Shown here: in pieces, positions 59,276-62,763 of the stretch
How the letters are laid out: the number at the start of each line of letters is the position of its first letter
Position numbering within the stretch: the first letter of the stretch is position 1
Assembly (NCBI RefSeq): GCF_007750855.1
Contig: NZ_CP036291.1
Coordinates: forward strand, 1,426,001-1,490,000
Length of the DNA stretch: 64,000 nucleotides
Source: Pirellulimonas nuda
Lineage (GTDB): Bacteria > Planctomycetota > Planctomycetia > Pirellulales > Lacipirellulaceae
Reading direction: 5' to 3'
Notes under the pieces: generated by a model
Databases searched by the model: none
Told to the model about the DNA's origin: nothing
The model's input: only the letters and a program-made list of their open reading frames with translations
Program-made: the position numbers and the translations under genes

Positions 59276-60421
59276 TCACGACCCGGGGTTGGCTTGCCGG
59301 CGTCGCAACCGCTGGCCGACCTGCTCTAGGGCTTTCACGTCTTCCGGAGGGATCGAACCGTCCGGCATGGGGCCGCTGTTGAGCAGCAGGTTCGCGCGGC
59401 TCTTCTCGGCCGACTTGAGCATCTGCATCACTTGGTCGGCCGACTTGTGCTTGCCGTCGTCCGCCTTGGTGTACCCCCAGCCATGCGGCTGGAGGGTGTC
59501 GCAGATCTCTAGCGGCACGTCGGACTCGCCCTTCCAGTTCCGTTCAGGCGCCCTGAAGTCTTCTGTGCCGAGCAGGCCCTGCTTGTACGACACCAGGACC
59601 TGCGGCTGGAGCGCGTGGATGTGGTCGTAGAGTTCTTGGCATTTGAACTGCCCCATCTTGTTGGGCCGCGACGCCGGGGTCGCGTGGCCGTCCAACCAGA
59701 TCGCGCCGATGGGCCCGTAGTTGGTCAGCAGCTCCGTGATCTGGTTGTGCATGAACTCAACGTAGACCTGCAGGTCGTGCTCGTCGCCGTACTTGTAGTG
59801 CGACTCACGAGGGTCGTAGTCGGGACGGGCGGCGCCGCCCCAATCTCCGTTGTTGGGGGCATGCGGGTGCCGCCAGTCGCGCCCGTGCGAGTAGTACAGG
59901 TAGAACCCGAGCCCCTTGGCGGCGCACTGCTCGGCGAACTCGCCGACGAAATCCCGCTTGGCGGGGCTGTTGACGCTCTTGAAGTCCGTGTACTTCGAAT
60001 CGAATAGGCAGAAGCTGTCGTGATGCCGCGTCGTTAGGTTGATGTACTTCATGCCGGCGTCGAGCGCCATGTCGGTGATCCTGTCGGGGTCGAAGCGGTC
60101 GGCCCGAAAGCGATCGACCAGCTTGGCGTACTCCGCGACGCGGATCTTCTCCTTGTACTGCACCCACTCGTGGCGGCCCAGCAGCGAGTAGAGCCCGTAG
60201 TGAAGGAACAGGCCAAACTTGGCGTCGCGGAACCACTGCACCGCTGCCTTGCGGGGGTCTTGCTGGTAGAGCTCCGAAACGTCGCTGAGGTACGACGGCG
60301 TCGAGCCGACGGCCCGACTGGCGGCGGGGGCTTGGCTCCACGCGGAGTCGCTGCGAGCGATGGCGCCGCAGGCGGCGGCGGCGACGCCCGCTTGGATAAA
60401 GTCGCGTCGATTCATCATCAT
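59276..60421 (-). CDS. Tat-exported alpha-L-fucosidase, GH29
   Basis: The protein has 381 residues. The N-terminal MMMNRRDFIQAGVAAAACGAIA is a Tat signal (RRDF). The GH29 barrel shows FGLFLHYGLYSLLGRHEWV, YINLTTRHHDSFCLFDS and GAIWLDGHATP, in which D244 is the likely nucleophile. It probably releases fucose from polysaccharides outside the cytoplasm. The ATG at 60421 is preferred to an in-frame GTG at 60433. Two GH29 genes in the window, with sulfatases and FucP, support fucose-polymer use. Confidence 0.92.
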   Translation of the reverse strand: MMMNRRDFIQAGVAAAACGAIARSDSAWSQAPAASRAVGSTPSYLSDVSELYQQDPRKAAVQWFRDAKFGLFLHYGLYSLLGRHEWVQYKEKIRVAEYAKLVDRFRADRFDPDRITDMALDAGMKYINLTTRHHDSFCLFDSKYTDFKSVNSPAKRDFVGEFAEQCAAKGLGFYLYYSHGRDWRHPHAPNNGDWGGAARPDYDPRESHYKYGDEHDLQVYVEFMHNQITELLTNYGPIGAIWLDGHATPASRPNKMGQFKCQELYDHIHALQPQVLVSYKQGLLGTEDFRAPERNWKGESDVPLEICDTLQPHGWGYTKADDGKHKSADQVMQMLKSAEKSRANLLLNSGPMPDGSIPPEDVKALEQVGQRLRRRQANPGS

Positions 60422-60599
60422 GCCTATTTTCACGCGGTTGGTTGAGCGAAACTCAGGCGCCGTCAGAGCGGTCGGTGGACCGAAGTCAGTCCGGCGGGCG
60501 GCTTCCAGTATAGTCGATCCCTCCGCACCCGGGGGGCGCCGTTGCTATTGTGGTCGCCCTCCCAGCCGGCAGCGTGAGTCAAGTGGTCGCTAGCCGGCA

Positions 60600-60734
60600 C
60601 TCCGACGCAAACGTAGAGCATTGCGCAGACGCGCGATTGACGACGCCGTTGAGCTTTATGTCGCCGCGGTCCTAGGTGTTCCAGTCGCCGACAGCGACGG
60701 ACCCAGACCCTCCCGCGATGAGGTTCTGGCTTGG
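60600..60734 (-). pseudogene. Dockerin-like remnant downstream of the PEP-CTERM gene
   Basis: The frame of the PEP-CTERM gene continues past its TGA at 60735 with dockerin-like sequence (VGDWNT, a TAG stop, then DRGDIKLNGVVN at about 60636-60668). Two in-frame stops thus interrupt a former dockerin domain. The rest of the 301-base spacer to the fucosidase start holds no gene. Confidence 0.55.
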
Positions 60735-62294
60735 TCACCCCGCCACGAACAGCGCCACGTCGCCGCTATTCACAGCGCCGTCCTTGTTCACGTTCCCCGG
60801 CCAGAGTACCCAGGTAGGGACCTTGCTTGTGACGTTGGCGGCGACAAACGTTGTTGCGTCCAACCCGGGGGTCCGCGTCCTTGGCCCTTTCCGCCGGCGC
60901 CGGGTCAGCCCCATGGCCCCCGCCAGGCCGATCAGGGCGAGCGTGGCTGCCGCCGGCTCGGGGACGGGCGCCGCGTCAACACCCCCCAGGGCGGCGGTGT
61001 TGCTGAAGCGGCTCTTCCAGTACGTATAGTCGAGCTGGTTCACCACGTTGTTCCCGTCGCCGTCCGCCGCCAAACCCGCGCCGGTGGCGCCGAGGGAGTC
61101 ACGCCACACCGTGTAGTCGGCGGCATCGACGAGGCCGTTGCCGTTGTAGTCGCCGGCGACCTGGGTGCTCACGTACTCGATGTTCGCGTTGAGGACGAGG
61201 CCGGTAGGAGACCGGAACTCAAAGCTGAGGGCGTTGGCGCCGGGGCCTTGGGTGTCGAAGGCGTTACCCAGTGAGATGGAGTCTCCGATCCCCAGCTCCG
61301 AGCTGCCGCCCAGGAACGCCTCGGCCAGCGAGGTTGAGCCCGGCGTGCCCAGCACTTCCCAGCCGTTGCCCTGGCCGTCGCCGCGGGGGAACTCGGCCAG
61401 GTCCTGGCCCTGGTTGGGGGTCGCGTCTTCTAGGCTGTTCCAGCCTGCGGGATTGAGCGATCCGGCGGGCCCCGACAGGCGGTACAGGTCCATGTCGAAC
61501 GTCTTCGACGTTGGGTTGGAAAGCACAACGGCGCCGGTGAGGGTGTTGACCGTGACGGTGGGCAACTCGAGTTCGCCGGTAGTCACGTAGGCGGTGAAAT
61601 GGGCGTTGCCGAAGCCGACCGCGTCGAGGGTGATGTCCTGGGTCGTTGCGTCCGCGATGAAGGCGCCAATGGCGAACTGATCGTCGAGGTCGACCGTGTT
61701 GCCGTTGCCATCGCCGAACTGCATCACCCGGGTGTTCCGACTATCCACAAACCAGAGCTGGATCTGGTACTGTTTACCCACGGTCAACAACCCCGACCCG
61801 AGCACGGAGGTGTCCCCGTCGCCGTCGCCAAGAGTAATCGTGAAGGGGTCTCCGCCGCCGCCGTAGGAGAGGGTGCTTACTAGTTGGTCGTACTCCGGGT
61901 CGCCCCCGTTCGTGGTCGTAGAAAAGTCGTTGGTCGCGAGCAGCGATGTCGGCAGCAAGCTAGAGGTCGCCACAAACGTAACGCCGTTCACGGTCACGTT
62001 CATCCCCGCCTGCGGGCTGTTGGGCGTTGTCGCCGTGAAGGCCTCGACCACGTCGCCGAAGACGACGTCCGACGAGTTGCCGGGCCCCGTGCTGATCGCC
62101 GTGGCCGGCCCCCAAGTGACTACCGCCGCTGCGGCGTGCTGAGCCGGCAGGAGCATTGCCGCTGTGGCCGCGAGCAGCAGCGCTACGCACGGCGCGGGGG
62201 CGACGCGCGTTCTGCGGAGCAGCCCGGCCGCGCAGGCCAGGCCGGCAAGCGCTACCAGCGCGAACGATCTTGGTTCGGGGACGCTTTGGGTCAT
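60735..62294 (-). CDS. Secreted PEP-CTERM/dockerin-type protein with extra tail
   Basis: The protein would be 519 residues from the ATG at 62294, but the start is uncertain. It contains a hydrophobic stretch like a signal peptide (CVALLLAATAAMLLPAQHAAAA), a beta-rich jelly-roll-like region (LTVGKQYQIQLWFVDSRN), two dockerin-type repeats (DYNGNGLVDAADYTVWRDSLG and ADGDGNNVVNQLDYTYWKSRF) and VPEPAAATLALIGLAGAMGLTRRRRK, a PEP-CTERM sorting signal. The frame then runs on into another dockerin-like piece (GNVNKDGAVNSGDVALFVAG), which is not normal after a PEP-CTERM. Its 5' end is fused with the remnant of another PEP-CTERM gene. Confidence 0.6.
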   Translation of the reverse strand: MTQSVPEPRSFALVALAGLACAAGLLRRTRVAPAPCVALLLAATAAMLLPAQHAAAAVVTWGPATAISTGPGNSSDVVFGDVVEAFTATTPNSPQAGMNVTVNGVTFVATSSLLPTSLLATNDFSTTTNGGDPEYDQLVSTLSYGGGGDPFTITLGDGDGDTSVLGSGLLTVGKQYQIQLWFVDSRNTRVMQFGDGNGNTVDLDDQFAIGAFIADATTQDITLDAVGFGNAHFTAYVTTGELELPTVTVNTLTGAVVLSNPTSKTFDMDLYRLSGPAGSLNPAGWNSLEDATPNQGQDLAEFPRGDGQGNGWEVLGTPGSTSLAEAFLGGSSELGIGDSISLGNAFDTQGPGANALSFEFRSPTGLVLNANIEYVSTQVAGDYNGNGLVDAADYTVWRDSLGATGAGLAADGDGNNVVNQLDYTYWKSRFSNTAALGGVDAAPVPEPAAATLALIGLAGAMGLTRRRRKGPRTRTPGLDATTFVAANVTSKVPTWVLWPGNVNKDGAVNSGDVALFVAG

Positions 62295-62517
62295 GGCTGC
62301 GGATACTCCGGGGCTGTTTTGGCCGTCATCAAGGGATTTGAATAGTCCGAAGTCAGTGATGTCAGTTTCGCCGTCGCGGTCGAACTCCAACTCGCTGAGG
62401 TCGGTGAACGACCCCGGCGCGCTCAGCACGGTCCAATTGTAATTGATGTCTACCGATCCGTTTCCGGTTGTCCCTCCGTTGGCCGGCGTGGCGTTTTTGT
62501 CCCCCGGCACGGAGGTC
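62204..62517 (-). pseudogene. 3' remnant of a PEP-CTERM (LamG/dockerin-type) gene
   Basis: The reading frame SVDINYNWTVLSAPGSFTD, followed by ELEFDRDGETDITDFGLFKS and then SVPEPRSFALVALAGLACAA with RRTR, is the C-terminal dockerin and PEP-CTERM end of a secreted protein whose front is missing. It begins abruptly at the truncated sigma factor and continues in frame, without a stop, into the signal-peptide-like part of the next gene. This suggests two deletions. Confidence 0.6.
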
Positions 62518-62763
62518 AACTCGCTTGGTGAGGATCTGAAAGTAGGCGACGCTCCTTGCCCAGGCGTCGAACGATTGGGAGGGGTCGTAGCCGTCAAACT
62601 GCTCCCACAGCCGGAGCTTGGTTTCTTGCAGCACCTCGTCGGCGTCCGCGAAGTTGGGCAGCAACGCCAGCACAAACCCGGCCAACTGTCGTTCGCTGGC
62701 GGCCAGCAGCGTCACGAACGCCGCCGATCGGTCGGACTGGGTTGCTTGCGGCGGCTTGGGCAT
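62518..62763 (-). pseudogene. Truncated ECF sigma factor
   Basis: About 80 residues of the N-terminal (region 2) part of an ECF sigma factor remain: FVTLLAASERQLAGFVLALL, ADADEVLQETKLRLWEQFDGYD and FDAWARSVAYFQILTK. The frame then leaves sigma homology at about 62524 and the HTH region 4 is absent. The family resembles the planctomycete ECF group found before FecR/LamG-type genes. It is probably non-functional, as promoter -35 recognition is lost. Confidence 0.75.

Follow-up and report, generated by a model that had tools for sequence, protein, structure and literature searches.

The window analysed here, a stretch of 64,000 nucleotides, corresponds to positions 1426001-1490000 of the Pirellulimonas nuda genome, which is assembled as one 6.6 Mb contig. 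Between an alpha-L-fucosidase gene on the minus strand (59276-60433) and a divergent sulfatase gene on the plus strand (from 63144) are minus-strand remains in two reading registers. The first is a truncated ECF sigma gene of ~77 codons that retains region 2 only (62534..62763, matching TIGR02989 and Sigma70_r2). The second is a long frame, in a register unlike that of sigma, that translates from ~62534 to a stop at 60735; a Pfam search of the window frames detects two PF07589 stretches and one Dockerin_1 domain in it, and its PEP-CTERM motifs are located at 62282 and 60965. The third-codon-position G+C bias, calculated over 240 bases at a time, agrees with the sigma frame upward of ~62430 and with the PEP-CTERM frame between ~60660 and ~62340, and because it tracks both frames, these are coding remains rather than chance frames. 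A megablast search of region 60600-62763 against plasmids found no plasmid relatives. A repeat at 60538-60559, between the remnant and the fucosidase gene, is 82% identical to a dockerin-coding repeat at 61134, is in another frame and is possibly one more scrap.

The sigma remnant resembles the TIGR02989 ECF sigma factors (Rhodopirellula/Verrucomicrobium family), a model matched by both the remnant and a paralogue elsewhere in the P. nuda genome. The paralogue aligns to positions 2-158 with 141.3 bits and passes the cut-off of 124.55, whereas the remnant aligns only to positions 1-71 of 158 with 68.8 bits and falls below this full-length limit; its Sigma70_r2 score in Pfam is 39.5 bits. The remnant is 68% identical to the paralogue and 76% and 74% identical to homologs in genomes G017 and G010, respectively, and its likeness to the sigma factors of three relatives stops in the alignment at ...AYFQILT. 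The intact sigma-FecR loci anticipated by an earlier sequence-only reading of this region do exist: a FecR gene identified by Pfam follows sigma in L021, L022 and L023, and in L101 sigma, a FecR gene with LamG, a PEP-CTERM gene and a three-module gene of the kind described below follow one another on one strand, which is the kind of gene order expected for the window before deletion. Compared with such TIGR02989 sigma and FecR loci, the window copy lacks the second half of sigma and the FecR gene. We also considered sigma/FecR as a constant neighbour of three-module genes and rejected it; among 55 loci with at least 3 kb of upstream sequence, sigma is present in 16 (once within an 811-codon frame) and FecR in 13.

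Separate searches of 39 genomes (P. nuda and 38 relatives) with the dockerin remnant and with PEP-CTERM piece 1 of the long frame repeatedly matched frames of ~1300-1500 codons, such as one of 1494 codons in P. nuda itself and two of 1481 and 1434 codons in G012; many other matches to the PEP-CTERM piece in these genomes were shorter frames. The intact relatives are single open frames, as a rule composed of three modules, each with an export and an anchoring signal. The plan was drawn from 13 long-frame loci, five as full translations and the rest as hydrophobic segments. Module 1 consists of a signal peptide, a domain, a dockerin and a PEP-CTERM helix with an Arg cluster. Module 2 begins at once with a second signal peptide and continues with a domain that in many cases resembles that of module 1, then a middle domain, a dockerin and a PEP-CTERM signal, and module 3 comprises a third signal peptide, a LamG-like module, a dockerin and the last PEP-CTERM signal. 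At each module border the PEP-CTERM helix, the Arg cluster and the next signal peptide follow one another in frame and without a stop. Exceptions among the 13 loci are L085, which has two modules only, and L083, whose last part is out of frame. L083 (G000:C1:2330500-2337500) is a copy in P. nuda itself in which the module 3 dockerin leaves the reading frame shortly before its end, and is perhaps a second decaying copy in this genome. Pfam detects three PEP-CTERM stretches in the L101 protein; in a set of five proteins of this kind, Pfam and NCBIfam detect only some of the motifs.

We mapped the window copy, all of it on the minus strand, against L087, a homologue of 1481 codons. A fragment of the module 1 middle domain (62381..62533) is 57.7% identical over 52 aa to L087 residues 300-350, and a first deletion junction at ~62534 joins sigma out of frame to module 1 residue 300 (L087 numbering). 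At a second junction (~62381), ~90 aa are gone ahead of half a dockerin, which leads into PEP-CTERM 1 (62205..62380; VPEP at 62282, a helix and LLRRTR), as identified by the L087 alignment and PF07589. The predicted internal signal peptide of module 2, RRTRVAPAPCVALLLAATAAMLLPAQHAAAA, follows at 62124..62213 in the same kind of joint as in relatives such as L088. It has the Arg cluster in common with PEP-CTERM 1, no start codon was seen at its head in the window sequence, and the whole joint, VPEP...LLRRTR-VAPAPCVALLLAATAAMLLPAQHAAAA, is close to that of L088. Mature module 2, delimited by domain search and alignment, contains an N-terminal domain, a middle domain and a dockerin (60966..62123), and ends in PEP-CTERM signal 2 (60885..60965; VPEP, a helix and RRRRKG), which is the best PF07589 stretch and occupies residues 570-595 of the 646-aa window frame. 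At the third junction (60854..60884), L087 residues ~1010-1354 have no counterpart, a loss of ~340 aa that includes signal peptide 3 and the LamG-like part of module 3. What remains beyond it is a module 3 dockerin remnant (60633..60853) that matches the ends of the ~1300-1500-codon frames in relatives, covers positions 289-361 of the 415-position module 3 profile and carries two in-frame stops (60737-60735 and 60674-60672). The alignment columns in which these stops occur hold one same residue in 12/12 and 8/12 rows (alignment A1, in which five of the 12 rows are P. nuda copies). Relative to L087, the window copy is without the LamG-like module 3 part and the third PEP-CTERM signal; relative to the three-module plan, joint 1-2 is present, joint 2-3 is deleted and the order is kept.

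By this alignment, the window copy has undergone three or more deletions, carries two stops and has lost its 3' end. The sequence-only reading had described a truncated sigma gene joined in another frame to a PEP-CTERM frame, with a dockerin tail interrupted by two stops, and had judged that at least three deletions or recombinations seemed needed; these elements are all present in the sequence, and the deletions now map to ~62534, ~62381 and 60885-60854 relative to L087. The same reading also named LamG remains. The domain search detected no LamG domain in any window frame, and what that reading called 'LamG' is the part of module 3 that the copy has lost. The window frame scores above both PEP-CTERM cut-offs, with two stretches for each model (33.4 bits against 20.7 for PF07589 and 19.5 against 16 for TIGR02595), but both of its motifs are internal rather than at the extreme C-terminus.

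We used a module 3 profile (12 rows, 415 positions) to examine how widely this architecture occurs. It matched 26 of the 43 genomes of the family, P. nuda included, and only two genomes, both of the same family, in a phylum sample of 392 with four candidates scored per genome. Among the matches listed, 78 were full length (covering some 340 or more of the 415 positions), with frames of 365-541 codons in 15 cases, 904-1024 in six and 1278-1806 in 57; some of the short frames end at contig ends. Module 3 was present in 72 frames from the 73 loci taken; six of the 78 full-length rows (one frame of 1392 codons and five of 365-492) were left out. An upstream PEP-CTERM module is fused in frame to module 3 in 61 of the 72 frames and unfused in 11, and because five of the six omitted rows are short, the split share is understated and would be 16/78 if all five were split. 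In eight of the 11 unfused cases, a PEP-CTERM frame ends in a stop 174-371 bases before module 3, and L148 and L150 are permuted such that module 3 stands first in a longer frame. Exactly three motif matches occur in 52 of the 72 frames, four in two and five in one, although in L097, one of the two four-motif frames, one match is a chance hit ('APEL'). The first modules of L123 and L136, which have four and five PEP-CTERM motifs, resemble tandem duplicates.

A tree of the 72 module 3 sequences implies seven changes between fused and split states, at least four of which are forced by well supported branches. Together with the split and permuted forms, these changes suggest that the modules can work apart, and the existence of split genes with the same modules suggests that their joining is not needed. 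The genes also tend to have a particular neighbour. In 39 of 66 loci, a DUF1559-type gene on the same strand starts no more than 1.5 kb downstream, in 37 of them within 135 bases, as counted among L081-L153 with a two-sequence profile that Pfam confirmed in the two cases checked (L022 and L082), so the two genes may form an operon. The two DUF1559 proteins checked have an N-terminal methylation, pilin-like motif.

A structure model of module 3 (mean pLDDT 81) retrieved ConA-like jelly-roll folds from the PDB, pentraxins first, with TM-scores of ~0.3 by query and 0.5 by target at ~10% identity. Other matches, at ~7-12% identity, were to trans-sialidases and the receptor-binding domains of clostridial neurotoxins. 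We take these predicted similarities to mean no more than that the fold is lectin-like and shared.

These results bear on how the long frame arose. According to the sequence-only reading, it is a chimera of unrelated genes, perhaps produced by recombination between dockerin/PEP-CTERM repeats, with the joint of PEP-CTERM and signal peptide near 62200 as one of the scars and the locus as a possible repeat-driven hot spot. Sigma does run out of frame into a gene for a surface protein, and short direct repeats exist, some of them dockerin-coding. However, the supposed scar is the ordinary joint of the 61 fused frames among the 72 homologous ones, the pieces in the window stand in the same order as in intact relatives, and none of the seven direct-repeat families found forms a pair flanking a mapped junction. 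Because its pieces stand inside single long frames of relatives, we dropped the chimera as an explanation and consider it very unlikely. The order of module 1 end, module 2 and module 3 dockerin points to one gene plus sigma, not to a mosaic of unrelated genes. An artefact of assembly at the junctions is barely credible, as the genome is a single contig, and decay accounts better than mis-joining for three junctions together with two separate stops at conserved columns. We favour, with good though not full confidence, the reading that these remains are a pseudogene derived from a sigma-linked gene that would encode a tandem surface polyprotein. As for the prospect that relatives make one protein from the long frame, the family keeps it as one frame, from which one protein may be made, and the window copy is broken.

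The polyprotein as such is probably no longer produced from the window copy. Alternatively, module 2 could persist as a functional remnant, still translated, for instance, from an ATG just ahead of PEP-CTERM 1, and be exported as a single surface protein. All of module 2 is present and retains the third-position G+C bias, and an in-frame ATG at 62294 has GGAG 11 bases upstream. Yet the signal peptide lacks a start of its own, the start of sigma is in a different frame, and module 2 has no close relative that would serve for a selection test, so that we find a functional remnant improbable beside plain decay.

This want of relatives was seen with the N-terminal domain of module 2 (61563-62129), whose only other match at E <= 0.001 in the 39 genomes, P. 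nuda included, is the neighbouring sulfatase. The C-terminal part of this sulfatase (gene from 63144; L024:4145-6970) is 39-42% identical to the domain, a likeness that possibly reflects a local copy or a shared ligand. In the alignment, the module 2 N-terminal domains of the window and L087 are unlike and L088 is closer there. A search of the genome contigs with the module 2 core found no relative, and a single-sequence structure model of the N-terminal domain was not usable (mean pLDDT 33).

We examined the joints between modules in all 72 frames, judging signal peptides by hydrophobicity (limit 1.5) and an AxA motif. A second hydrophobic segment follows 123 of the 127 internal PEP-CTERM motifs, and in 100 of these 127 cases AxA is also present (it is absent behind 27); when, as a control, translation was continued past the stop for 65 terminal motifs of the family, there were only 15 second segments, two of them with AxA. 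Of the four misses counted among the 127 sites, three are untrue joints, namely the third site of L081 and L116, both terminal motifs with longer tails, and the 'APEL' site of L097; the fourth, joint 1 of L106, has a hydrophobicity of 1.39. The second segment begins 20-79 residues past the motif (median 30), and the intervening residues have a median net charge of +4 with His counted as positive. Conservation is similar for internal and terminal motifs: xPEP is exact at 124 of the 127 internal sites and at all 66 terminal ones. At the N-terminus, where frames were taken from stop to stop, a hydrophobic segment lies within the first 120 codons in only 46 of 56 long frames, 31 with AxA. Codon-position G+C within the joints was uninformative.

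Internal sites are rare in other proteins from these loci. Under a stricter motif rule, 79 other PEP-CTERM frames from the same 73 loci have 79 terminal and three internal sites, the latter in L085, L125 and L133, each with two motifs. The L125 frame lies directly upstream of a split module 3. The frame in L133 (L133:3-2831, plus strand) leads from a phosphodiesterase- or sulfatase-like module to a LamG module, and this tandem of another protein indicates that the layout is not confined to the three-module family. Internal translation starts were considered as the reason for the fused frames and rejected as a general one, there being only 12 candidate starts that resemble ribosome sites. Among the joints to module 3, those of L127, L134 and L120 (all in G013) retain a ribosome-site-like stretch and an ATG within the fused frame, and could be intermediates between operon and polyprotein.

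If the features of the joints reflect their function, the first signal peptide would start export and the PEP-CTERM helix would stop it. The Arg cluster would then remain cytoplasmic and serve both as the end of the exosortase signal and as the positive head of the next signal peptide, a sharing that would make the hairpin very compact. The following hydrophobic stretch would re-start export, signal peptidase I would cut after AxA, and exosortase would cut and anchor at PEP, such that separate surface proteins would result in equal amounts from one start. In intact genes, we infer that the chain is cut by both signal peptidase and exosortase. The P. nuda genome has two PF09721 (exosortase) matches over the cut-off. 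One of them (G000:C1:3441252-3442016, L154) lies in a 1769-codon frame, which is unusually long for an exosortase.

The same joints might instead belong to a chain that stays uncut, in which the internal signal peptides would be uncleaved anchors and three outside domains would be held on membrane hairpins. The very short linker between the two helices in many joints, where the second core starts a median of 30 residues past PEP, would suit such hairpins. But the second segment is followed by AxA in 100 of the 127 joints as opposed to 2 of 65 in the read-through control, and in split forms module 3 begins with its own hydrophobic head; we regard an uncut chain as a doubtful but not negligible outcome. 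By a narrow preference, we lean towards a polyprotein widespread in Lacipirellulaceae, in which one gene may yield three (sometimes two, four or five) exported proteins through alternate cuts by signal peptidase I and exosortase around a shared Arg cluster, with repeated interconversion between operon and polyprotein and with enzymes linkable in like manner (L133).

Taken alone, the item in the window is an ordinary pseudogene, and its value is that it leads to the class of tandem PEP-CTERM proteins. It also carries a warning, in that reading a single window can mistake a conserved odd architecture for a chimera. If the proposed processing is true, exosortase substrates can be linked as polyproteins, which would make exosortase cutting straightforward to test, as any chain left uncut would be easily seen, and the fused and split versions would provide a natural series for the conversion of an operon into a polyprotein.

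Polyproteins are a rare strategy in bacteria. One bacterial case is FbcH of Bradyrhizobium, a cytochrome b/c1 polyprotein cut at an internal signal-peptidase site. The three-module family resembles FbcH in having one chain with an internal signal peptide, although cutting is only inferred for the family, and FbcH gives rise to two respiratory proteins whereas the family would give rise to three surface modules with a sorting signal at the end of each. A full-text literature search found no report of PEP-CTERM polyproteins or of internal PEP-CTERM signals, a weak negative given that few subscription journals were covered, and as far as these searches show, tandem PEP-CTERM surface proteins are a conserved, apparently undescribed class that resembles polyproteins. 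In Haft et al. 2006 (PMC1569441), the PEP motif is placed near the extreme C-terminus, very few PEP-CTERM proteins are noted to have much longer tails and may be non-functional, and no membrane segment is reported between the signal peptide and the motif except in one three-member family. The three-module proteins are like these PEP-CTERM/exosortase (EpsH) proteins in their PEP motif, helix, basic cluster, signal peptide and genomic exosortase, and differ from them in that their motifs are internal, well kept and then followed by a new signal peptide.
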